Positions 1 through 19,041 of a stretch of DNA of 22,154 nt are shown here, piece by piece. A program made the position numbers and the translations under genes. Source of the stretch: a virus; IMG/VR virus record IMGVR_UViG_3300044911_000641, positions 1 through 22,154 of that record; one strand, given 5' to 3'. A model generated the notes under the pieces. The model worked only from the letters and a program-made list of their open reading frames with translations. It did no database searches and had not been told where the DNA came from. How positions within the stretch are numbered: position 1 is the stretch's first letter; each line of letters starts with the position of its first letter.

Positions 1-438
1 ACCAGAATAGGTCGTATGAGGAGCAAAGATGATTGCTTCTTTGACTACATCAGAAAAGTGATAGGTGATAGTGTTGGGGCAATAAGTGCTGTTTCCACCG
101 TATCCGATGAAATCACCTTGAATGATGTTATCAATCCTGGGGAGATTGTTGAAGCAGGCAATAAGAATCTCTGCAACGCGAGGAGTGTTACCGTGATTAC
201 GGAGAATGTCTTCAATGCTGTAATTTACCTTGATTTTCTTACGATTAAAAACTGATTTTGTCCCACAGAAGAACTTACCAGTCTCAGGGTCAGTTCCAAA
301 CACTACAGCCGGAGCACCGTCCATCTTTACACTGATGGTAGAATCAGCGGAGAACCAATCCAGAACAGACAGATTGCCCGTCAGGATTTCATCTTCAGGA
401 TGGTTCAGATGTTTGTTCTGCATTGGTTTGGTGCTCAT
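1..438 (-). CDS. N-terminal part of a KxDG-motif phage protein (DUF6267-like), cut by window edge
   Basis: The first 146 residues are visible and the gene runs off the left edge. The stretch ISVKMDGAPAVVFG (K38-G41 = KMDG) and a later QGDFIG (about 107-112) recall motif I (KxDG) and motif III of covalent nucleotidyltransferases, the DNA/RNA ligase fold. From memory this resembles the T4-type cyanophage family DUF6267; no search was run. The start ATG (436-438) lies inside repeat R1 and begins MSTKPM. It has no Shine-Dalgarno, and a second Met at residue 6 is an alternative start. A terminator lies just upstream, so repeat R1 or read-through must supply transcription. Enzymatic activity is an inference from motifs only. 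Confidence 0.72.
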   Translation of the reverse strand, partial: MSTKPMQNKHLNHPEDEILTGNLSVLDWFSADSTISVKMDGAPAVVFGTDPETGKFFCGTKSVFNRKKIKVNYSIEDILRNHGNTPRVAEILIACFNNLPRIDNIIQGDFIGYGGNSTYCPNTITYHFSDVVKEAIIFAPHTTYSG

Positions 439-468
439 ACTATAGGGACACTTTCAAGGGCCCAGTTA
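431..468 (-). repeat. GGGCCC repeat R1 (start-codon-associated element)
   Basis: First of seven copies. On the minus strand it reads AACTGGGCCCTTGAAAGTG then TCCCTATAGT then ATGAGCAC. It has one base change in the core (CCCTT instead of CCCCT). It sits between terminator 479-503 and the start of the partial gene 1-438, whose ATG is inside it. This is the only copy not directly behind a stop codon, which is an argument that the element acts on the gene downstream. Confidence 0.9.
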
Positions 469-478
469 CGTTCACAAT

Positions 479-503
479 AAAAAAGGCACTCATTAAGAGT
501 GCC
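479..503 (-). terminator. Intrinsic terminator after the 81-aa gene
   Basis: A perfect 7-bp stem, GGCACTC/GAGTGCC (485-491 with 497-503), has a 5-base loop. On the minus strand it is followed by six T. It ends the transcript of the gene at 514-759. Confidence 0.9.
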
Positions 504-513
504 CATTGTACCA

Positions 514-759
514 TCAAGCAGTTACTCGTTGAGTAGACAGTTGTTGATACTTTTCAGTCACATAATCAATGGTTTGCTTCACATAAGGAGCAATCATTGT
601 AGTGAACTTAGTCACATCTTCACGAAGTTTGTTGACTTCATACTGATGGATTTCCCAGCGAACCTTAATGTCTTGAATGTATTGCTGACGAGTGATAAGA
701 ACTTGGGGAACTTTCACTTCAGCAGCAACATTTGCGGTTTGCTTACGGGTGCGGGTCAT
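514..759 (-). CDS. Hypothetical 81-aa charged protein
   Basis: I do not recognise it. The protein is helical in character, with an N-terminal basic MTRTRK and an amphipathic middle rich in K, E, Q and V. There is no Cys, membrane segment or catalytic motif. The ATG at 757-759 is 17 bases after repeat R2 and has no Shine-Dalgarno. The gene forms a clean one-gene cassette: repeat R2, gene, terminator, then repeat R1 of the next gene. That packaging is typical of early accessory genes in T4-type phages, by inference. Confidence 0.72.
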   Translation of the reverse strand: MTRTRKQTANVAAEVKVPQVLITRQQYIQDIKVRWEIHQYEVNKLREDVTKFTTMIAPYVKQTIDYVTEKYQQLSTQRVTA

Positions 760-775
760 GCGGACCGTGTGAACT

Positions 776-811
776 ACACTACTGGTACACTTTCAGGGGC
801 CCAGTTTCAAT
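776..811 (-). repeat. GGGCCC repeat R2
   Basis: Minus strand: ATTGAAACTGGGCCCCTG then AAAGTGTACCAGTAGTGT. It begins at the stop codon (TGA 807-809) of the Dam gene and ends shortly before the start of the 81-aa gene. The arms ACTGG and CCAGT are complementary and could pair around a 15-base loop. Confidence 0.9.
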
Positions 812-1625
812 AGACTGCAATGAGTTCTTCTGCTTTCTTCCTACTACCACCTTTTGCTGCGATAGTCCTAGTTACCTGAATCGAATGGATTGTAGCATTT
901 TTGTAGAGTTCTTGTGTAACTGGAGTGTTATGATTTGATATGATTACTTTGATACCTTTTGCAGCAAGAGATTCTGCAAGTTGTGCTAATTCAATCTGCT
1001 GGTCATGAGTGAATCCATCAGTTGCATAATTTGTAAAGTTTGCAGTATCCGAGGCAGGGACATATGGTGGGTCAAAGTAAACAACGTCACCTGCTTCTAA
1101 GTCTTCATAAAGAGATGGATCTTCAAAAGAAAGTGATGTAAACCTTACCAGTTGTTTGGTGAGGAAGTACATCCTAAAGTTCATCATCTCTTCAGATGGG
1201 CACATTGGTTTATCATACTTGCCGAAAGGAACATTGAACATTCCTTTACTATTGTATCGTGACAATCCATTAAAGCAATGACGATTCAAGTAGATAAACA
1301 GTCGTGCTCGCTCAGTTGAATCTGTTGCTTGATTAAAGTGTTGTCTTAAATCAAGATATCCTTCCTTTGTGTTATTCTCTGGAGTGAATAGTTCCTCACA
1401 ATACTTGATGAAGTTATCATCGTTTGTATCTACAAGATTTTGGTAGATGGCAACCAAATCCTTATTCACATCATTAAGGATGTATTGCTCCGCAGGAGTA
1501 TTCAATGCTACAGCAAGACTGCCACCAAAGGGTTCACAGTAACGCTTTGGACAACCAATATGGGGAATAAGATGGGGCAGAACCCTTGTTTTATTTCCAG
1601 CCCACTTCAGAAAAGTCTTATTCAT
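807..1625 (-). CDS. dam: DNA adenine methyltransferase, Dam family (putative GATC)
   Basis: Transfers a methyl group from S-adenosylmethionine to N6 of adenine in double-stranded DNA; GATC is the usual target of this family. The 272-residue protein shows FLKWAGNK (5-12) and EPFGGSLAV (31-39), which form the SAM-binding signature, then ILNDVNKDL (about 49-57), NRHCFNGLSRYN (about 114-125) and the catalytic DPPY (175-178). I chose the ATG at 1623-1625, preceded by GGAA, because the family begins about five residues before this KWAG motif. A GTG at 1646 would add seven residues. It lies 88 bases downstream of the MutH-like endonuclease gene, probably in the same transcript, and repeat R2 follows its stop. 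Confidence 0.95.
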   Translation of the reverse strand: MNKTFLKWAGNKTRVLPHLIPHIGCPKRYCEPFGGSLAVALNTPAEQYILNDVNKDLVAIYQNLVDTNDDNFIKYCEELFTPENNTKEGYLDLRQHFNQATDSTERARLFIYLNRHCFNGLSRYNSKGMFNVPFGKYDKPMCPSEEMMNFRMYFLTKQLVRFTSLSFEDPSLYEDLEAGDVVYFDPPYVPASDTANFTNYATDGFTHDQQIELAQLAESLAAKGIKVIISNHNTPVTQELYKNATIHSIQVTRTIAAKGGSRKKAEELIAVY

Positions 1626-1713
1626 AATTTCATTCCAGGTTTCCACCCCTCTCTAGGACATTCTACTTGGATAACTCTTTTTTGTCCATTATTCCACCAT
1701 CACTATACTGATG

Positions 1714-2319
1714 TCAGAACAGATTACGTCCGAATTGTCCACACAGGTAGAATGCCATTCCCTTATCCTTTAGAGTCACATCTGCAAAGGTCAGTGGTGT
1801 ATAGTAACCGTTGGTTTTAGATGCTTTCGTGCGAATCTGCAGCAATCCGTTAGGTCCAGTGATGGTCGAAAGTTCTTTGCCAGCATTGAAAAGTGTACGA
1901 ATTCTGTTGCAAATGAACTCATAATCCTCACGCAGTTCCTGATAGTGTTCGGGATGAGTTTCCTCATTCAGAACAGCGCAACCCACATAATCGTTAGAGC
2001 GGGTGAAACCAACATACAGAGTTTGCTTCAGTTTCTGCCCGACTTTACTATCATCAAAAGACACAGAATCTTCGATGATTTCAGATAGGCAATGCTTCAA
2101 CTGTGTGGCAGCAATGCTTTCACCAACCGTGAAAGTCTTAATCTCTCCATCCTCTAGATCTTTGAGGTCAGAAGAGTTAGGAACACCGAGAACAGTTTCT
2201 AACAGTTGCCCGCGAGCACCTTTGTTCTTTCCAGGTTTGTCAAATACACTGAAGTCGGTTACTTTCAGTTTGCCAAATACTTGATTTGTGGTGAGTTTTC
2301 TCATAATTGTGGTGCTCAT
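1714..2319 (-). CDS. MutH/Sau3AI-like restriction endonuclease
   Basis: Probable DNA endonuclease of the MutH/Sau3AI fold, which cuts at GATC. GARGQLLE (E41) matches the GxxGQLLE helix of MutH, and D51 with E59-I-K61 (DGEIKTF) fits the D...ExK metal-binding site. At 201 residues it is close to MutH (about 229), without the second half of Sau3AI. The start lies inside repeat R3 (MSTTIM); Met6 is the alternative. The adjacent Dam gene, 88 bases downstream, makes a methylase/nuclease pair. No MutS or MutL is in the window, so a role in destroying unmethylated DNA seems likelier than mismatch repair. The family assignment is by motif only. Confidence 0.78.
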   Translation of the reverse strand: MSTTIMRKLTTNQVFGKLKVTDFSVFDKPGKNKGARGQLLETVLGVPNSSDLKDLEDGEIKTFTVGESIAATQLKHCLSEIIEDSVSFDDSKVGQKLKQTLYVGFTRSNDYVGCAVLNEETHPEHYQELREDYEFICNRIRTLFNAGKELSTITGPNGLLQIRTKASKTNGYYTPLTFADVTLKDKGMAFYLCGQFGRNLF

Positions 2320-2351
2320 AATACAGGTACAGTTTCAGGGGCCCAGTTTCA
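2312..2351 (-). repeat. GGGCCC repeat R3
   Basis: Minus strand: ATTGAAACTGGGCCCCTG then AAACTGTACCTGTATT then ATGAGCACC. It joins the stop of the 58-aa gene (2349-2351) to the start of the MutH-like gene, whose ATG at 2317-2319 is within it. Confidence 0.9.
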
Positions 2352-2525
2352 ATCAATGGGCAACTTAGCAGTGCTTTTGCCTTTCTTGTGGTCATCAATG
2401 AACTTCCTAGCAGATGCTTCAGTCCTACACACTTTCAGTTGCTCTCCATTATAGATTATCATTAGTTGCCGTCCATAAGGCACGGCTGCATATTCCATAT
2501 TCTTCCCGACAGTAAATCCGTCCAT
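2349..2525 (-). CDS. Small hypothetical protein (58 aa)
   Basis: An ATG at 2523-2525 opens a 58-codon frame. The protein begins MDGFTVGKNMEY, has a short beta-rich middle (GRQLMIIYNGEQLKVC) and a Lys-rich tail ending KLPID. Its stop overlaps the upstream edge of repeat R3, as the neighbouring genes do, which supports it as a real gene. No motif is recognised. It lies about 75 bases beyond the weak terminator after the helicase, so it may be expressed by read-through. Confidence 0.6.
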   Translation of the reverse strand: MDGFTVGKNMEYAAVPYGRQLMIIYNGEQLKVCRTEASARKFIDDHKKGKSTAKLPID

Positions 2526-2599
2526 AAGTTACACTTTCCAATAAATCGTGAATTTCGTTGCAGTGGATGGGTTCTAGGTCGTCCCCAGCGAAAATGCAG

Positions 2600-2623
2600 A
2601 AAAATCAGGTTTTGACCCCTGAT
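2600..2623 (-). terminator. Weak intrinsic terminator after the helicase
   Basis: A 6-bp stem ATCAGG/CCTGAT (2604-2609 with 2618-2623) has an 8-base loop. On the minus strand it is followed by TTTTC. It lies 24 bases past the helicase stop codon. The rest of the 120-base gap (2526-2646) shows nothing else. Confidence 0.55.
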
Positions 2624-2646
2624 GGCCACTGCATTCTCATTGAGAC

Positions 2647-3894
2647 TCACCTGCGAACCGTGCTGATGGCAGGTTCTCCCTGAACAAAGATGGTGTCTAC
2701 AACCGATTGAACTGCCTTGGCGGTGGTGATACCAACCTTAGAATACACAGGGATGCACACGAGTCCGAAACTCTTGGTGTATTGTCCCAGGTTGCCAGGT
2801 TGGATGCTACCATCGCGAAGACCTTTGGCGTCATCGTGATGCAGTCGGATGCAACGTCCGATGGTCTGGGAGATACCGATGAAGTCCATGTTACGCAGGA
2901 AAAGTACCGCTTCCAGACCGCTGACGTTGATACCTTCAGCCAGGATGCTGTGGTGCAGAACAACAAACTTCTTGTTGTTGTCCTTGCCCCAGGCAGATAG
3001 AGTGTCGAAGAATACTTCGCGGTTCACTTTCTTGCCGTCAATCACAGCACCAGTCTTGGCAGTGATGTACATCCAAGAGAAACCGCGAGACTCCAACTCA
3101 GAACAGAAGTCAGTCTCAGAAACCAGCGAAACAATCTGCTTGGTTGCCTTAGCACAAATCAGAATCTTGCTGACTTCGTTGTCATCAATCGTTTCCAGCA
3201 GATTCTCAGCGTCGCGGTCAAAGTTGGTTTGCTTGCTCTGTACCATCTCCAGTTGCTTGACGATAACTTTAGGGGGCACAATGAACCCACCAGCAACCAG
3301 TTCAGGAGCAGGAACTTTGCAGATTACCTGACCGTAAACTGCCGAATCATTCATGCCTGGTTTACCCACAGCAAGGGAATGTTTGGGGGTAGCAGTGAAG
3401 AAGTAGCAGCGACGTGCGTTAGCAGCAAAGTGCTCAGTTGCAGGGAAAAAGTGACGCTGAACAGAATTATGTGCCTCATCAAAGTAGATGGTATCCACAT
3501 CAATCTCTGCTACCTGAAGGCGCGACAGAGAGTTGTAGGTGGTTACAATCAGGCGATGATTGTCGGCATTTGCTTCAACCCACTTGCGAATCTCATAAGG
3601 GCGAGTAGAGGACTCATGATGCGTCTCCCCCGAGTGCACGTGGAAGACTTTAGCGTTGGTGATGAACTCCAGAAACTCAGCAGAGAGTTGCTCTGCAAGC
3701 AAAATGCGAGGAGCAACAACTACAATGGTCTTAGGAGTTTCAGACTGCAACTCACGCAAACAATCATAGATCATCTTCAGAGTCTTACCGCCACCAGTAG
3801 GAACAATGATTTGACCTTTGTTGTGCTTTTGCATAGCAGCAACGCCACGTTCCTGGTGAGGGCGAAGTTGGATTTGCATAGGGTTGGTGCTCAT
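2647..3894 (-). CDS. Superfamily 2 DEAH-box helicase
   Basis: ATP-dependent DNA helicase or translocase of the ResIII/UvsW type. In 415 residues it shows the Q-motif region RPHQERGV (11-18), Walker A PTGGGKT (32-38), DEAH (139-142), FTATP motif III (166-170), a second RecA-like domain with HHSILAEGINV (314-324) and motif VI QTIGRCIRLH (343-352). There is no attached nuclease domain. The start is inside repeat R4 (MSTNPM, no Shine-Dalgarno). UvsW of T4 acts in recombination and late origin control and is about 500 aa, so this is a compact relative or a restriction-type helicase. It lies upstream of the MutH/Dam pair, separated by one small gene. Confidence 0.92.
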   Translation of the reverse strand: MSTNPMQIQLRPHQERGVAAMQKHNKGQIIVPTGGGKTLKMIYDCLRELQSETPKTIVVVAPRILLAEQLSAEFLEFITNAKVFHVHSGETHHESSTRPYEIRKWVEANADNHRLIVTTYNSLSRLQVAEIDVDTIYFDEAHNSVQRHFFPATEHFAANARRCYFFTATPKHSLAVGKPGMNDSAVYGQVICKVPAPELVAGGFIVPPKVIVKQLEMVQSKQTNFDRDAENLLETIDDNEVSKILICAKATKQIVSLVSETDFCSELESRGFSWMYITAKTGAVIDGKKVNREVFFDTLSAWGKDNNKKFVVLHHSILAEGINVSGLEAVLFLRNMDFIGISQTIGRCIRLHHDDAKGLRDGSIQPGNLGQYTKSFGLVCIPVYSKVGITTAKAVQSVVDTIFVQGEPAISTVRR

Positions 3895-3925
3895 ACTATA
3901 GGTGCAGTTTCAGGGGCCCAGTATC
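3887..3925 (-). repeat. GGGCCC repeat R4
   Basis: Minus strand: TGATACTGGGCCCCTG then AAACTGCACCTATAGT then ATGAGCACC. It begins at the stop (TGA, 3924-3926) of the 65-aa gene and contains the helicase ATG (3892-3894). The TTGAAA seen at the upstream edge of R2, R3, R6 and R7 is absent here. Confidence 0.9.
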
Positions 3926-4121
3926 AGTTACTATTCTCTTTGTATCTCTGAAGGTCTTCAATCACACTTCTCATTATAGCATGACTGTATCCATTTGCAT
4001 AGCAAGGAGACTTCTCTATCTCATCAGAATTATAATCAACATTCGCACATACATCATAACCTCTCTGTAGAGTGTTGAGGATGCTATCGAACACATAATC
4101 AGGGATTTGAATGTAACTCAT
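3924..4121 (-). CDS. Hypothetical 65-aa protein
   Basis: Begins MSYIQIPDYVFDSIL and ends with a helical DLQRYKENSN. The frame is open 13 codons further up to 4160, but that part lies in the hairpin and T-run of terminator 4150-4185, so I place the start at 4119-4121. No known domain; two or three Cys and several acidic residues. It lies just downstream of a terminator and upstream of repeat R4. Confidence 0.65.
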   Translation of the reverse strand: MSYIQIPDYVFDSILNTLQRGYDVCANVDYNSDEIEKSPCYANGYSHAIMRSVIEDLQRYKENSN

Positions 4122-4149
4122 CGTTTTCAGTGGTTTGATACCTAAACAT

Positions 4150-4185
4150 AAAAATAGCACGCTCAGAGGTCAATCTAAGCGTGCT
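4150..4185 (-). terminator. Strong intrinsic terminator after the 75-aa gene
   Basis: A 12-bp stem (4156-4167 with 4174-4185, one G-T wobble) has a 6-base loop. On the minus strand it is followed by ATTTTTA. The 13 bases upstream read AACTGCCCACCAG, which resemble the box found upstream of two other terminators (13087-13116 and 17699-17725). Confidence 0.9.
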
Positions 4186-4198
4186 GGTGGGCAGTTAA

Positions 4199-4426
4199 TC
4201 AACCGCCGAACATTTCATCAAACAAGTCATTCATTTCACTCAGTTCATTCTTGCGGTCAATCATGTTTCTCATTTGAATAAGATGGTCTTGTTCCATCTT
4301 AAGTTTCATGAGTTGGTCGCCAAGATAGTGAAGTTTGTTGTTGATTTCCACTCGGTCCAAACCATCAACAGTGGTAACCATGTGTTCCATGCCGTTGATG
4401 ATTTGGGGTTTTTCGGAAACTTTCAT
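4199..4426 (-). CDS. Hypothetical 75-aa coiled-coil protein
   Basis: Starts MKVSEKPQIING. Residues from about 25 to 70 form a predicted amphipathic helix with regular L/M/I spacing, and the protein ends in DLFDEMFGG. The 75-aa protein at 8657-8884 has the same length and a similar Phe/Gly end (FGSFFGDM); common ancestry cannot be shown. It follows repeat R5 after a 10-base spacer without Shine-Dalgarno and is closed by a strong terminator, giving another one-gene cassette. Confidence 0.75.
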   Translation of the reverse strand: MKVSEKPQIINGMEHMVTTVDGLDRVEINNKLHYLGDQLMKLKMEQDHLIQMRNMIDRKNELSEMNDLFDEMFGG

Positions 4427-4436
4427 TATAAAGGTG

Positions 4437-4476
4437 CAGTGCTTATGCTACTGGTACAGTTTCAGGGGCCCAGTTA
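4437..4476 (-). repeat. GGGCCC repeat R5
   Basis: Minus strand: TAACTGGGCCCCTG then AAACTGTACCAGTAGCATAA. It starts directly after the TAG stop (4477-4479) of the 210-aa gene. The ACTGG/CCAGT arms are intact. Confidence 0.9.
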
Positions 4477-5109
4477 CTATTTGCCTGGGGTGAGTGAGGA
4501 TTGATATTCGCTTGCTGGTTTTTCTCTCTTTTTCTGCAAATCTGCTTGCAGTCTCTTACCAGTTCTTACAATTCTCTTCTTCTCATCTCTAGTATAAGGT
4601 CTCTTTTCACCTTTAGGAAGTAGTGAACCCTTAATCATATGGTCTTCTTTCTCTCCAGAAGTTTTCTTCTCAGGTGCTTTCTTTGAGAGAAGTTTAGTTG
4701 CTGCTTTCTCTGCTTCTTTTGCTTTTGGTTTCTCTGCTGATGGAGTTTGTCCTGATTTCTTTGCAGTAATTCTTGCCTGTGCTGCTTTTCTTCTTTCTGC
4801 CTTTACTTTTTCAGCATAAGATTGCTTAACTTCAGCACTTCCGCGCTCTTTGGTAGGTTGCTGGACACGGGAAGATGCTGGTTTTTGAGTACCAACATCT
4901 TTCCTCTCTTTGTAAGAAACAGGAACTCGCTTAACTTTACCAGTCTCGGGGTCCCTAACTGATTTCATCCTTCTCATTTCAGGAGCAGTCTTCTTGCGTT
5001 CTGCACCAACCTTTTGTCCATCACCACCGCGACGGATTTGTGATGAACCCATAACGCTAGCGTCATAGGATGCTTCAGTAAGAACCATAAACTCAGCAAA
5101 TGTTCTCAT
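4477..5109 (-). CDS. Lys-rich putative internal head protein with capsid-targeting N-terminus
   Basis: A 210-residue, highly basic, low-complexity protein full of K, R, A, E and S, with no folded-domain signature. It opens MRTFAEFMVLTE, then ASYDAS. This resembles the T4 capsid-targeting sequence (MKTYQEFIAEA type), and LTE followed by A fits the gp21 prohead-protease site (L/I-x-E). A late promoter (5133-5142) lies 24 bases upstream of the ATG. The inference is that it is packed in the prohead, trimmed after residue 12 and perhaps bound to DNA or injected. The alternative is a scaffold-like or other basic protein. Repeat R5 follows the stop. Confidence 0.8.
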   Translation of the reverse strand: MRTFAEFMVLTEASYDASVMGSSQIRRGGDGQKVGAERKKTAPEMRRMKSVRDPETGKVKRVPVSYKERKDVGTQKPASSRVQQPTKERGSAEVKQSYAEKVKAERRKAAQARITAKKSGQTPSAEKPKAKEAEKAATKLLSKKAPEKKTSGEKEDHMIKGSLLPKGEKRPYTRDEKKRIVRTGKRLQADLQKKREKPASEYQSSLTPGK

Positions 5110-5132
5110 CTTTCTTGACTATAGACCCTTTC

Positions 5133-5142
5133 AGGTATTTAG
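5133..5142 (-). promoter_or_regulatory. T4-type late promoter
   Basis: Minus strand CTAAATACCT, 24 bases before the ATG of the 210-aa basic protein. It matches the TATAAATA late box of T4-type phages at the TAAATA core, and the same CTAAATACCT occurs at 5951-5960. It lies just downstream of a terminator, which would insulate it from the upstream early genes. Confidence 0.7.
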
Positions 5143-5149
5143 TCAATAG

Positions 5150-5177
5150 AAAAGGTCCAGTTTCTCAACTGGACCTT
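5150..5177 (-). terminator. Intrinsic terminator after the 68-aa gene
   Basis: A perfect 9-bp stem AAGGTCCAG/CTGGACCTT (5152-5160 with 5169-5177) has an 8-base loop and is followed by TTC on the minus strand. It separates the 5186-5541 gene pair from the late promoter at 5133. Confidence 0.85.
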
Positions 5178-5185
5178 GCCTTTTG

Positions 5186-5392
5186 TTAGTTATCTTCCTT
5201 TAGTTTGTCTTGTGCAGATTTACTAATCTTACATACACGATCTGTTTCATAGAACCATTTTACTCGTTCTCGACGTGCTTGTAAAAGAATGTCGTATTGT
5301 TCCTGTTGAGCAGGAGTAAACTTAAAATCTTGACGACGATAAGTTTCTTTCAGTTCGTTCAGGTGAGAGAGCACGTTTACAGTTTCAGTCAT
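5186..5392 (-). CDS. Hypothetical 68-aa phage protein
   Basis: Starts MTETVNVLSHLNELK; the centre is FTPAQQEQYDILLQARRERV, a charged helix, followed by WFYETDRVCKIS. I recall similar small proteins in cyanophage genomes but no function. A TTG two codons upstream is possible, but the ATG at 5390-5392 lies two bases past the stop of the preceding 48-aa gene, which suggests translational coupling. A terminator follows. Confidence 0.75.
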   Translation of the reverse strand: MTETVNVLSHLNELKETYRRQDFKFTPAQQEQYDILLQARRERVKWFYETDRVCKISKSAQDKLKEDN

Positions 5393-5394
5393 AA

Positions 5395-5541
5395 TCAATA
5401 ATCGTAGTTGCTGTTGAGATAATCTTTCATATTGAAGTTGTTTTCCTCTTCAATGAGGTCGGTTAAGTCTTGTTCGATGAAATCAAATCCTGAGGTTTCT
5501 TCAATTTGAATGTCATCAAAGCAGTCCATAAAATCATTCAT
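5395..5541 (-). CDS. Small acidic protein (48 aa)
   Basis: Begins MNDFMDCFDDIQIEE and continues with many D and E residues (predicted pI very low), ending NSNYDY. The ATG (5539-5541) abuts repeat R6, and the stop is two bases from the next start. No Shine-Dalgarno is visible. Function unknown; strongly acidic small phage proteins are sometimes DNA mimics or inhibitors, but nothing here shows that. Confidence 0.65.
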   Translation of the reverse strand: MNDFMDCFDDIQIEETSGFDFIEQDLTDLIEEENNFNMKDYLNSNYDY

Positions 5542-5581
5542 GCTTACACTATTAGTACACTTTCAGGGGCCCAGTTTCAAT
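5541..5581 (-). repeat. GGGCCC repeat R6
   Basis: Minus strand: ATTGAAACTGGGCCCCTG then AAAGTGTACTAATAGTGTAA. It starts at the stop (TGA 5577-5579) of the 119-aa gene and runs into the ATG of the acidic 48-aa gene. CTAATAGT replaces CCAGTAGT, so the CCAGT arm is lost in this copy. Confidence 0.9.
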
Positions 5582-5936
5582 CGCGAGACATAATCGCTTT
5601 CATCTCTGCTCTCTTTTGTGCTTGCTGTGCTCTTGCTTCAGCACCAATTTCTTGTTGCACGTGTCTAGCTTGAACAGACTTTTGTATTGCCTGACGCTTT
5701 GCAATTTGTTGATTAAAATAAGTAGGTTTGGTTGTAGGAATTTGCTCTAATTGCAATTCCTTTTTCAATTCTTTCTTGAGTTGCTCACGTTCCCTTTGCT
5801 TTTCAATTCTTTCTTGTTGGGCATCTTTCTGCACTTGAACTCTCTCCTTCTGTGCTTGCATCTGGTCAAGTCTTCTTTGCTGAAGTTCTTGTCTTCTCTG
5901 TGCTAAGTCTTCAGATAGTTGGCGGAAAGTTTTCAT
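5577..5936 (-). CDS. Gln/Arg/Lys-rich coiled-coil protein, possible capsid-targeted internal protein
   Basis: 119 residues. After MKTFRQLSED comes an almost unbroken helix of Q, R, K and E, with heptad-like L/M spacing to about residue 75 and a second helical part to the end. The N-terminus resembles T4 internal-protein targeting peptides, and LSE (7-9) could be a prohead-protease site, though the following Asp is less typical. A late promoter (5951-5960) lies about 15 bases upstream of the ATG. It probably belongs to the virion head together with the 210-aa basic protein. Repeat R6 follows directly. Confidence 0.78.
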   Translation of the reverse strand: MKTFRQLSEDLAQRRQELQQRRLDQMQAQKERVQVQKDAQQERIEKQREREQLKKELKKELQLEQIPTTKPTYFNQQIAKRQAIQKSVQARHVQQEIGAEARAQQAQKRAEMKAIMSRD

Positions 5937-5950
5937 TTCTAATACTTTTT

Positions 5951-5960
5951 AGGTATTTAG
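5951..5960 (-). promoter_or_regulatory. T4-type late promoter
   Basis: Minus strand CTAAATACCT, in the short gap between the stop of the membrane-protein gene (5962) and the ATG of the 119-aa coiled-coil gene. It is identical to the box at 5133-5142. Confidence 0.7.
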
Positions 5961-5961
5961 A

Positions 5962-6240
5962 TTATTCAAACTCGAATGGTCTATTGATACCCCTTCTCGG
6001 TGGAGGTTGATATTCTGGAATTGCCTCACCTTCAATTACAACTACAGTTCGTTGATTCTTATCTGTTGGGTAGTGATGAGTTCTTAGTACACCATAAACA
6101 ATAAAACAGTTAGTGATAAGAATGGATAAAAACATCATAAGGCGAATGAGTGCTACTCTATCCGCCTCTTTATCACATTTACTTGCCTTTTCACCCAGGG
6201 ACTTCGCTAGCAATCGCCAAGCAGTTTTCTGTTTCTTCAT
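5962..6240 (-). CDS. Small single-pass membrane protein (92 aa)
   Basis: A basic N-terminus (MKKQKTAWRLLAKS) is followed by one hydrophobic segment (LMMFLSILITNCFIVYGVL, about residues 34-52) and a hydrophilic Pro-rich tail (IPEYQPPPRRG). No known domain. It overlaps the preceding gene by 50 bases, which is long; both frames look protein-like. Likely an inner-membrane protein of unknown role. Confidence 0.75.
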   Translation of the reverse strand: MKKQKTAWRLLAKSLGEKASKCDKEADRVALIRLMMFLSILITNCFIVYGVLRTHHYPTDKNQRTVVVIEGEAIPEYQPPPRRGINRPFEFE

Positions 6241-6466
6241 AGATTGATTGACGAGACTTAATGTACTGTAGTTCTTTCCACTGACTATTATAACAAATCA
6301 CAAGTAATCTTTCGTTTCTGTGAATGGGACAACATTCAAAGTTTACTTCATCTTTTGGGCGAACAACATACTCAATAGTAATGTATTCTTTATCCTTGAA
6401 ATAAACCCATCCTTCAACACCTTTCGTCCACACAACGTAGTCATTAACTTGTGGTTCATAAGTCAT
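6191..6466 (-). CDS. Hypothetical 91-aa protein, cyanophage type
   Basis: Begins MTYEPQVNDYVVW, followed by an EGWVYFKDKEYITIEY motif with a beta-barrel-like feel, a Cys/His pair (ECCPIHRN) and LLVICYNSQWKELQYIK. Similar proteins occur in T4-type cyanophages from memory, without function. I take the ATG at 6464-6466, which forms an ATGA overlap with the upstream stop, rather than a start three codons earlier. Confidence 0.78.
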   Translation of the reverse strand: MTYEPQVNDYVVWTKGVEGWVYFKDKEYITIEYVVRPKDEVNFECCPIHRNERLLVICYNSQWKELQYIKSRQSIYEETENCLAIASEVPG

Positions 6467-6756
6467 GAGAAACAACTCATCAGCGGGTTTAGTTTCAGCG
6501 GCATTGCGGTATAGTTCCGCGTGTCCGTGATATTTACACGAGCACCGACTGTCTTACTATTGATGGGGGAGAAGTATTCTCCAGATTTGGTGTTGTAGAA
6601 GGAATGAATAGTTCTTGTAGGAGCACCGCCATTATAGACAAACTTGCGAGTGTTACATAACCAAATACTGATAAAGTTACGTTTGAACTCTTCTGGTTCA
6701 TAATAATACCCATCGGGAGGAGAATGAATGAAAGAACTTGGGAGTTCAACAGTCAT
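6463..6756 (-). CDS. Hypothetical 97-aa conserved phage protein
   Basis: Begins MTVELPSSFIHSPPDGYYYEP. It includes IWLCNTRKFVYN, a basic turn (APTRTIHSFYN) and SGEYFSPINSKTVG. No catalytic motif. Its TGA overlaps the next ATG in the ATGA arrangement, and its start overlaps the coiled-coil gene upstream by 11 bases. Probably one operon from 7309 down to 5962. Confidence 0.75.
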   Translation of the reverse strand: MTVELPSSFIHSPPDGYYYEPEEFKRNFISIWLCNTRKFVYNGGAPTRTIHSFYNTKSGEYFSPINSKTVGARVNITDTRNYTAMPLKLNPLMSCFS

Positions 6757-6892
6757 AAAATCTATCTTTAGAGATGTACTTGATTTGCTCTTGAAGTCTT
6801 AGGATTTCATGTTGCTGTTCAGTAATCTTCTCTTGAAGTTGACTGATACGATCCTGGTATTGTTTTTTCAAATCAAATTCCAGGCGATTCAT
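6746..6892 (-). CDS. Short coiled-coil protein (48 aa)
   Basis: Begins MNRLEFDLKKQYQDR and continues as a single heptad-patterned helix (ISQLQEKITEQQHEILRLQ) to a short tail ending FYDC. Probably dimeric. The overlap with the next gene and the 14-base spacing from the upstream stop support translation. No function can be assigned. Confidence 0.65.
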   Translation of the reverse strand: MNRLEFDLKKQYQDRISQLQEKITEQQHEILRLQEQIKYISKDRFYDC

Positions 6893-6906
6893 TGAAGTGT
6901 TAATCA

Positions 6907-7137
6907 TCACACAGTAAAAGTTTCGACGACTCGGGATTCTTCTTCATCAACAAGAGCGAACTGCGATGCCTTCATTACATTTTCTCGAAGTTTACCATAA
7001 TGCTCTTCCCATTCACCATTGTCCCACTCGGCAATCAGGTCAAAACATTCATCATCATTTTCCGCGATTACATTTAGTAAACCACCGTCACTATGAGTTG
7101 ATGGTGCATGATAATCAACGATATACAGATACTTCAT
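6907..7137 (-). CDS. Hypothetical 76-aa acidic protein
   Basis: Begins MKYLYIVDYHAPSTHSDGG, then has an acidic centre (AENDDECFDLIAEWDNGEWEEHYG) and a C-terminal strand (SRVVETFTV). The beta-alpha-beta look is common among small T4-type phage proteins. An AAGGAG lies 16 bases upstream, farther than ideal. Function unknown. Confidence 0.72.
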   Translation of the reverse strand: MKYLYIVDYHAPSTHSDGGLLNVIAENDDECFDLIAEWDNGEWEEHYGKLRENVMKASQFALVDEEESRVVETFTV

Positions 7138-7195
7138 TGTTGCTTGTAAATTACTCCTTTAGTTTAATGTGAAAAGTGTTGGAAGTCAAGTGGGA

Positions 7196-7309
7196 TTACA
7201 GAATAAACTCATAGATGATGTAGTCACTTGTAACCTCATGTTCTTCAGCAAGTTGTTCCACAAAATCCCAGAATGCTTGCTCAGCTTCCATCAAATCTTC
7301 TTCAGTCAT
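7196..7309 (-). CDS. Tiny acidic protein (37 aa)
   Basis: MTEEDLMEAEQAFWDF begins a short acidic helix that ends YIIYEFIL. Despite its size it has the best Shine-Dalgarno in the window: AAGGAG seven bases before the ATG (7307-7309). It starts the leftward gene series, divergent from the plus-strand gene at 7360. Confidence 0.65.
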   Translation of the reverse strand: MTEEDLMEAEQAFWDFVEQLAEEHEVTSDYIIYEFIL

Positions 7310-7328
7310 TCAGATTCTCCTTTCAAAA

Positions 7329-7338
7329 ATAAATACCA
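7329..7338 (+). promoter_or_regulatory. T4-type late promoter for the only plus-strand gene
   Basis: ATAAATACCA on the plus strand, 21 bases before the ATG at 7360. It matches the late boxes on the other strand (CTAAATACCT, ATAAATACCT). Its presence in front of a lone rightward gene argues that both the gene and the motif are real. Confidence 0.72.
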
Positions 7339-7359
7339 AGTAACGACTTCTAGCACAGA

Positions 7360-7779
7360 ATGGAACCGAAGGGAAAATCTAGAGTAGCAATTCTAAAGGA
7401 AAGAATCAAACTACTCACTGACCCAGAGGAAATTATGTTAGAAATCGTTGATGTTTTTAAGGACCTAGAAATTATACCTGATGTTGGAATGTATTGCACA
7501 TTCATTTACAATGCTAAAAGTGTAAGAGATAGGTCAAAAGAAAGTGTAGTCCCATCGACAGGTAAAATCTTTTACGACCAACACCCATTAGTGCAAGTGT
7601 TGAGTGTGCAAAGATGGGGGTTTAGAGCATTTAACTATCATTGGACTGGTAGAGGTGAAGAAATCCACAACTACACCTGGGATGAGGTAGCAGGACAGTT
7701 GCACATAATCAAACCGAATGAAATGTCCTTTATGAGAACAGTTGATTATGTGAAGTTACAAAGATATCAAACCATTTAA
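7360..7779 (+). CDS. Hypothetical 139-aa late protein, only gene on the plus strand
   Basis: The N-terminal half is a charged helix (ILKERIKLLTDPEE). A beta-rich domain follows: GMYCTFIYNAKS, IFYDQHPLVQVLSVQRWGFRAFNYHW, then YTWDEVAGQLHII. The second half recalls small T4-type cyanophage proteins that share an F-x-Y...HPL...W-G-F...N-x-H-W pattern (from memory, function unknown). A late promoter precedes it, so a virion or assembly role is plausible. It converges on the 49-aa membrane gene with two bases between the stops and no terminator, so the two transcripts probably overlap. Confidence 0.82.
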   Translation: MEPKGKSRVAILKERIKLLTDPEEIMLEIVDVFKDLEIIPDVGMYCTFIYNAKSVRDRSKESVVPSTGKIFYDQHPLVQVLSVQRWGFRAFNYHWTGRGEEIHNYTWDEVAGQLHIIKPNEMSFMRTVDYVKLQRYQTI

Positions 7780-7781
7780 GG

Positions 7782-7931
7782 TTATTGTATAAGAGGTTTC
7801 TTTATGTTTTCCATTGCTTGCTGACGATAATATGATTTGTAGAGTTCATTATCCCTTTGAATTAGAAAGACATTCCACCCAATCATAGCAGCGAAACCTA
7901 ATGCAAAAGTGATGATGTACTTACGGTTCAT
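7782..7931 (-). CDS. Small membrane protein (49 aa)
   Basis: One N-terminal hydrophobic segment (YIITFALGFAAMIGWNVFLI, residues 5-24) after MNRK, then a charged tail (QRDNELYKSYYRQQAME). The ATG overlaps the upstream TGA in the ATGA arrangement, so it is translationally coupled to the 137-aa gene. Probable inner-membrane single-pass protein of unknown function. Confidence 0.7.
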   Translation of the reverse strand: MNRKYIITFALGFAAMIGWNVFLIQRDNELYKSYYRQQAMENIKKPLIQ

Positions 7932-8341
7932 GCTACGAGTGCTCCAGAGGGGATTTCAACAACTTCAGGAAGTTTGCTATCATCAAACTGATTCATATTG
8001 TAGCATACCCATTCACCATTGCGGAAGACATAGGCATACTCTTCACTGTTATTTGGGAGAAGATACTCGCAGAGGTCAGCATCAAGACGCGGGGGAGAAT
8101 CTTCACCACGCTCAGAGTAATACATTGGACCAGTTTCAGGGCGAGTTTCGTTCTTCCAACCACAGTTAGTCCAAGGAGAACTCATATCACCACCGTCAAT
8201 CAGTTCAGCAACTTTATCTTTGGTGGTGTAATGTGTGCGAAGAATGCGACCCATCCACTCAGGATAACCATCCCAGTGTGCGTATGCAGAGAGAATCGAA
8301 CCATCAGGAAGTTCAAGACCGATTCGTGAACGAGTCGCCAT
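7928..8341 (-). CDS. Conserved phage protein (MATRSRIGLEL family, 137 aa)
   Basis: A frequently seen phage protein of unknown function, recognised by the start MATRSRIGLELPDGS, then AHWDGYPEWMGRIL, VAELIDGGDMSSPW, SERGEDSPPR, EEYAYVFRNGEWVCY and the end PEVVEIPSGAL. Length is normal for the family as I remember it. Expression would start just behind repeat R7, whose edge is 11 bases before the ATG; no clear Shine-Dalgarno is present. It heads a two-gene unit with the 49-aa membrane protein. Confidence 0.85.
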   Translation of the reverse strand: MATRSRIGLELPDGSILSAYAHWDGYPEWMGRILRTHYTTKDKVAELIDGGDMSSPWTNCGWKNETRPETGPMYYSERGEDSPPRLDADLCEYLLPNNSEEYAYVFRNGEWVCYNMNQFDDSKLPEVVEIPSGALVA

Positions 8342-8352
8342 TTCAAACGTTT

Positions 8353-8393
8353 TGCTTACACTACTGGTACACTTTCAGGGGCCCAGTTTCAAT
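8353..8393 (-). repeat. GGGCCC repeat R7
   Basis: Minus strand: ATTGAAACTGGGCCCCTG then AAAGTGTACCAGTAGTGTAA. It begins at the stop codon of the 54-aa gene and leads into the 137-aa conserved gene. It is nearly identical to R2, about 7.6 kb away, and is the last copy in the window. Confidence 0.9.
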
Positions 8394-17760: not shown

Positions 17761-19041
17761 TTATGAGAGACCACCGTGTGCCGAGGAACACGCAGCAGGT
17801 CGATTACGTGCTACAGTTAAGTCTCCAAAGTCAGTTGCATTACCTTCTGATGCTATAGTAATGTAATCTATTACGTTTTGGCCTAATGGTGATATATAAC
17901 CACCACCAAAGACACCTCTGGTGCTTGATGAACATGCAGATATCCAAAAACGTGCTACTGTTAAATCTCCAAAGTCAGTAGCATTACCTGTAGTTGCTAT
18001 GGTGATGTAATCTATTGTGTTTGTTGTTGGAGAACCACCACCAAAGACACCTCTAGTACTTGAAGAGCAAGCTGCTAGTCGAAAACGTGCTACAGTAAGG
18101 TCTCCAAAGTCAGTAGCATTACCTGTAGTTGCTATGGTGATAAAGTCTATTGTGTTTGTAGTTCCTGATGGAGTATCAAAACCTCCACCAAAGACACCTC
18201 TGGTACTTGAGGAACATGCAGCAAATTGTTGACGTGCTACCGTAAGGTCACCAAAATCAGTAGCATTACCGGTGGTTGCTATGGTAATATAGTCTATTGT
18301 GTTTGTGTTTGCTGGAATATAACCACCACCAAAGACACCTCTGGTACTTGAGGAACATGCGGCAGGATGAGCACGTGCTACAGTAAGGTCACCAAAGTCA
18401 GCAGCATTACCGGTGGTTGCTATGGTGATGTAGTCTAATGTGTTTACTATTGTAACATATGGTGTTGGCGTATAACCACCACCAAAGACACCTCTAGACC
18501 CTGAAGAACACGCTGCTAAACCAATACGTACTACGGTAAGGTCTCCAAAGTCGATTGCGTTACCTGTAGTTGCTATAGTAATGTAATCTATTACGTTTGA
18601 TACTGGATTACCGCCACCAAACATACCACGATCACCAGCATCTTGTGATGATAGTGCAGCTTGTAACCACGTGGTACCAGTATAAAACTCCAAACTATTA
18701 ATAATAGTATTATATCTTATAGAACCAGTAATCGGAGTAACAGGTCTTTGGTCTGTTGTGCCACTAGGAATATCTAAATCAACAGTAGCAACTAAAGTAG
18801 TAGCTGTAATGATACCAATGGTATTTACGCTTCCTGTAGTACCAATACCAACACCAGTTAATTGAGAACCATCGCCTCTATAAGAAGTCGCAGTAATAAC
18901 TCCTACAGTTAGATTAGGACTTCCACTTAATCCCGTTGCAGTTCCCGTTACATTTCCAACGAAACTAGTAGCAGTTACAATACCAGAAAAACTTGCTCCT
19001 GCCGATACATTACCTATAAGTTGAGCTCTAGTAACCGACAT
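17761..19041 (-). CDS. Tail-fibre protein with six Kelch-like repeats
   Basis: 426 residues. The N-terminus MSVTRAQLIGNVSAGASF...IVTATS is shared with the fibre at 20902-21969. After a connector (GDGSQLTGVGIG, then FYTGTTWLQ), six repeats of about 45-50 aa follow, each with IDYITIATTGNATDFGDLTVAR, a variable triplet, then ACSSSTRGVFGGG. They could form a beta-propeller. The C-terminus ends SSAHGGLS. A late promoter (19055-19064) is 14 bases upstream and a terminator follows. It is a likely host-binding fibre of T4-type cyanophages; the receptor is unknown. Confidence 0.88.
   Translation of the reverse strand: MSVTRAQLIGNVSAGASFSGIVTATSFVGNVTGTATGLSGSPNLTVGVITATSYRGDGSQLTGVGIGTTGSVNTIGIITATTLVATVDLDIPSGTTDQRPVTPITGSIRYNTIINSLEFYTGTTWLQAALSSQDAGDRGMFGGGNPVSNVIDYITIATTGNAIDFGDLTVVRIGLAACSSGSRGVFGGGYTPTPYVTIVNTLDYITIATTGNAADFGDLTVARAHPAACSSSTRGVFGGGYIPANTNTIDYITIATTGNATDFGDLTVARQQFAACSSSTRGVFGGGFDTPSGTTNTIDFITIATTGNATDFGDLTVARFRLAACSSSTRGVFGGGSPTTNTIDYITIATTGNATDFGDLTVARFWISACSSSTRGVFGGGYISPLGQNVIDYITIASEGNATDFGDLTVARNRPAACSSAHGGLS
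17800..18640 (-). repeat. Six tandem DNA repeats within the fibre gene
   Basis: Units of about 130-150 bases, aligned on AAGTCTCC/AAGTCACC and CACCAAAGACACCTCT on the plus strand. Much of each unit is nearly identical at DNA level, while the spacer and the triplet after VAR change. Such arrays can gain or lose units by recombination. Confidence 0.85.

Follow-up and report, generated by a model that had tools for sequence, protein, structure and literature searches.

The window analyzed here, a 22 kb virus record (22,154 nucleotides), is a fragment of a T4-like cyanophage, and the closest relatives of its helicase and of the gene at 7928-8341 are found in T4-like cyanophages. The seven minus-strand copies of a GGGCCC-centered element reported in a preliminary description of this DNA are all present. 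The copies, together with an intrinsic terminator and the gene that follows the last copy, are as follows.

437-466, minus strand: copy 1; core 466-452 (one mismatch), hexamer TAGTAT 442-437, in-frame ATGs at 438 and 423
484-504, minus strand: intrinsic terminator just upstream of copy 1 (fold z -5.16)
776-805, minus strand: copy 2; core 805-791, hexamer TAGTGT 781-776, gene start 759
2318-2347, minus strand: copy 3; core 2347-2333, hexamer TATTAT 2323-2318, in-frame ATGs at 2319 and 2304
3893-3922, minus strand: copy 4; core 3922-3908, hexamer TAGTAT 3898-3893, in-frame ATGs at 3894 and 3879, helicase gene downstream
4445-4474, minus strand: copy 5; core 4474-4460, hexamer TAGCAT 4450-4445, gene start 4426
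5546-5575, minus strand: copy 6; core 5575-5561, hexamer TAGTGT 5551-5546, small ORF start 5541
8358-8387, minus strand: copy 7; core 8387-8373, hexamer TAGTGT 8363-8358, gene start 8341
Start 8341, minus strand: gene after copy 7; cyanophage cluster GC66, phrog_1987

The exact core, ACTGGGCCCCTGAAA, occurs in six of the seven copies, copy 1 having one change. The copies are confirmed as real, nonrandom, and co-directional: none of 100 shuffles of the window reached seven core matches (mean 0.34). As had been described, GGGCCC is confined to the repeats (seven occurrences in the window, all within copies), and six copies directly follow the previous stop codon, the exception being copy 1, which comes after the strong intrinsic terminator at 504-484. 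The TGTACC said to follow the core is exact in four copies, the other three reading TGTCCC, TGCACC, and TGTACT. The claim that every copy lies just before a start codon needs correction, however, for copies 1, 3, and 4, which extend past the start and contain an in-frame ATG at core+28 (hereafter ATG28) as well as a second in-frame ATG at core+43.

Several other features of the window were recorded. The minus-strand basic proteins encoded at 4477-5109 and 5577-5936 begin with MRTFAEFM... and MKTFRQ..., starts that we take to resemble the capsid-targeting start of T4 internal head proteins. A late-promoter-like site, CTAAATACC, is located just upstream of each (5134-5142 and 5952-5960, minus strand), and the early region therefore seems to contain late-type genes. 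In addition, five to six tandem repeats of ~135-157 nt with 72-80% identity are present at 17783-18627, within a minus-strand coding region (17761-19041), and positions 7360-7779 hold a 139-codon open frame on the plus strand, in a region that is otherwise minus-strand.

The preliminary description proposed a search of related genomes, and the element is present both in IMG/VR relatives and in cultured cyanophages. The exact core was detected in 100 stretches of IMG/VR contigs, with the copies on one strand per contig. A 219 kb IMG/VR record with T4-type capsid, terminase, and DNA polymerase genes carries 12 copies at a looser match, 11 of which fall within ~14 kb, the remaining one lying toward the opposite end of the contig. 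Similarly, the right part of the element, AAAGTGTNCCTATAGTATGAGCA, occurs in the cultured phages S-SM2 and SynMITS9220M01 in 10 to 12 copies each. The core plus the hexamer had zero matches in the prokaryote genome contigs searched, an absence that speaks against a host origin of the element. A literature search on GGGCCC repeats in cyanophages returned nothing relevant, and the published work on the S-CREM1 non-coding RNA proved unrelated.

Alignment of 394 non-identical copies, picked by the core alone, gave a consensus of roughly AACTGGGCCC[CT]TGAAA[GC]TG[TC]NYC[AT][AG]TAGT[AG]T[GA]AGCAC, in which T24, A25, and T29 are conserved at 95-97%. The element consists of two parts, a variable left box (ACTGGGCCC[CT]TG in this genome) and the common right part. 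While the left box is nearly constant inside one genome, it diverges across genomes: the identical right part is preceded by TTACTCACCTCT in SynMITS9220M01 and by GGGGGGTCGCCT in S-SM2, and a scan with the right part only recovered at least 120 stretches with many different left boxes, the family including TGGGCCC, TGGGGCC, AGTAACC, ACTCACC, GGGGACG, GGATCC/G, and others. Pairs of left boxes with at most 2 mismatches in 10 make up 94% of the pairs within contigs vs 27% of those between contigs, in a sample that is biased because a single box served to find many of the contigs. The distance from the core to the hexamer TA[GT]T[AG]T is fixed in 403 of 412 copies, and the copies without the usual hexamer mostly have TATAAT, TATAGT, or TATGAT 2-3 nt upstream. 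Downstream start codons, by comparison, stand at a variable distance, mainly core+43 to +52. Position 15 of the element is G or C even inside one genome, and core+22-23 occurs in two states, AG and TA. Judged by its sequence in hundreds of relatives, one half of the putative switch is common to them and the other half is virus-specific, as though each genome had a key of its own.

We favor, with a probability of about 0.58, the reading that the element is a phage-specific early-region promoter of a T4-like cyanophage, with the layout of a T4 middle promoter. Among the options offered in the preliminary description, the early promoter is the best supported. The promoter would sit before many separate genes of the early region, and the genome-specific box (here ACTGGGCCC[CT]TGAAA, roughly -36 to -22) would replace the -35 hexamer, while the TA[GT]T[AG]T hexamer (core+24 to +29) would serve as the -10. 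Transcription presumably uses the host RNA polymerase, and the box would probably be read either by an activator specific to the phage or by a modified form of that polymerase. Early expression is presumed because of the genome region, in which the copies form one co-directional group. None of the seven copies appeared in the list of sigma-70 consensus sites with a -35 TTGACA and a 16-18 nt spacer. Copies occur directly after terminators or after genes with the late-promoter-like CTAAATA, so a new transcript start would be needed there. Against the promoter reading, the fourth place of the hexamer is T, unlike TATAAT, and a search for an activator of the box found none.

The start codons pose a further difficulty. 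ATG28 shares bases with the hexamer. It occurs in 74% of the copies with an in-frame downstream start vs 14% of those in which that start is out of frame, and is therefore translated. Of 662 copies, 174 were assigned to a class with ATG28 as the sole start codon; this class is somewhat overcounted, as a few of its members have ATG or GTG at core+43. These ATG28-only starts conflict with the promoter reading because a transcript starting ~7 nt past the hexamer would lack that codon. With ATG28 kept in frame and the only start in about a quarter of the copies, some transcripts must begin upstream, and the same sequence would thus also be borne on transcripts coming from upstream. Many of the ATG28-only copies are explicable by read-through from upstream promoters; those behind terminators, among them the copies before the DUF6267 gene directly behind intrinsic terminators in several phages, do not readily fit this. 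ATG28-only copies are rarer after genes with a late-promoter-like site (5/45, 11%) than elsewhere (23-25%), a difference that is not decisive because mostly one gene family is involved.

Since the copies behind terminators are hard to explain in this way, a compact promoter keeps a modest minority share of the probability. Here, the left box and the AAA would form a recognition and melting region, RNA would start at about core+15 to +25, and ATG28 would be read from a very short leader, which agrees with the ATG28-only starts and with the in-frame constraint on ATG28. The layout also resembles that of the 15-bp Syn5 promoter followed by G. Such a promoter would need a polymerase or factor other than the sigma-70 holoenzyme, however, and neither a single-subunit nor another phage RNA polymerase was found, although the Pfam look-up was weak and detected no control. 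Moreover, position 15 can be either G or C in copies from a single genome, and the rigid spacing to the -10-like hexamer and the TATAAT replacements would need another reason. The narrower proposal that the element is the promoter of a Syn5-like single-subunit RNA polymerase draws on a specific likeness, ATTGGGCCCCTGAAA and ATTGGGCACCCGTAA agreeing at 12 of 15 positions with a G after both, yet it is highly improbable. In 23 element-bearing records (mostly fragments, one of 219 kb), no such polymerase was detected with PF00940, a family search that recovered no control, or with the Syn5 protein, a search that recovered its Syn5 control. The other left boxes of the element family are also unlike the Syn5 promoter.

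Two further explanations place the function outside transcription initiation. An RNA-level element bound by a phage protein, that is, a translational operator, a ribosome-loading leader, or a processing site in a polycistronic mRNA, would fit the position between stop and start codons and the translation of ATG28, and an RNA-binding protein co-evolving with its target could account for a genome-specific box. However, the seven copies folded no better than shuffles (z-scores -0.64 to 1.95), a search of the element against Rfam gave zero matches, and the AG/TA alternation at core+22-23 disrupts the only stem that several copies show. The RNA leader or translational operator of the preliminary description is unlikely, and less likely than the promoter, because deviant copies carry TATAAT-like hexamers, which point to DNA. 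The same folding and Rfam results speak against the stem-loop cassette suggested there by analogy with the PeSLs of T4-type phages; like these, the element is a short intergenic repeat in a T4-like phage, but it has neither a stem-loop nor a sigma-70 -35. A mobile or recombination cassette with gene shuffling as its main role is very unlikely. The same downstream families do follow many upstream families, and the presence of the element is tied more closely to the family of the downstream gene (entropy 0.38) than to that of the upstream gene (0.50; shuffled 0.72), so the element does accompany its downstream gene. On the other hand, gene order at the copies gave no clear excess of shuffling: the identity of the downstream gene is alike at element and other junctions (0.38 vs 0.44 averaged by family; 33% vs 26% of all pairs). 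Boxes are homogeneous within genomes; among the 73 contigs that have at least four copies, only 3 hold a foreign box, in one copy each. Given the similar adjacency and the rarity of foreign boxes, a shuffling-hotspot cassette is unsupported.

In T4 middle promoters, a MotA box of the TGCTT type replaces the -35 and stands at a fixed distance from the -10 before many genes. The promoter proposed here likewise has a phage-specific box at the -35 place and is repeated before genes, and the fixed distance is found in 403 of 412 copies between the box and a -10-like hexamer whose -10 role is putative. The box differs in that its sequence is unrelated to the MotA box, which was not found among the left boxes of the element, and in that it varies from genome to genome. 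T4-like cyanophages have been reported to lack motA and/or asiA (PMC5780444).

The corresponding region of other T4-like cyanophages (Syn9, P-TIM40, S-PM2, P-SSM2, S-SSM4, Bellamy, S-SKS1, and S-SCSM1) has boxes resembling A[CG]TGGCACA or TGTCACA, with TATAATA-like hexamers ~30 nt downstream. These boxes are often preceded by TGTGCCA or TGTGACA (pattern TGTGMCA...TGGCACA), and terminator-like hairpins lie between such boxes in several copies. Doron et al. 2016 reportedly describe a novel early-gene regulatory element in Syn9 and P-TIM40, of which these boxes are candidates; like the present element, it is reportedly repeated before genes of the same genome region. The Syn9/P-TIM40-type boxes are similar across lineages, often in an inverted repeat, and farther from the -10, whereas the present element is compact and near the start codon and has a hypervariable box. 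S-B43 has TTACTCACCTC with GTGACAG just upstream, an arrangement that may link the two layouts. In S-CRM01 (~16130-24960), seven upstream regions have repeats with an 11-bp period (CTAATGG/TTTAAGG) ahead of TTATTGTAGCTACAT-like sequences; these repeats are unlike those of other lineages and reminiscent of the Pho box.

In a co-variation screen of box type against protein families, in which ancestry was not controlled, the families of the window genes at 4477-5109 and 2349-2525 ranked first (0/300 shuffles). The sequence of the protein at 4477-5109 tracks the box type more than expected, a link confounded by ancestry. As an injected-type basic protein from the same region, it is a candidate for an immediate-acting activator, but only a lead. 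The 58-aa protein at 2349-2525 (minus strand) has a predicted fold of strands and one helix (mean pLDDT 80) with no clear DNA-binding sign. Its family is present in ~100 related contigs, and the element never stands in front of it.

T4-like cyanophages are abundant, and how they switch their early genes is poorly known. A common promoter frame in which the box is swappable and particular to each genome suggests that the activator co-evolves rapidly, and makes this activator searchable. We tentatively propose that a lineage of T4-like cyanophages may run its early genes by a private system, in which a rapidly diversifying activator would be paired with a box that is uniform in each genome and different between genomes. 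The elements could also offer orthogonal promoters for cyanobacteria.
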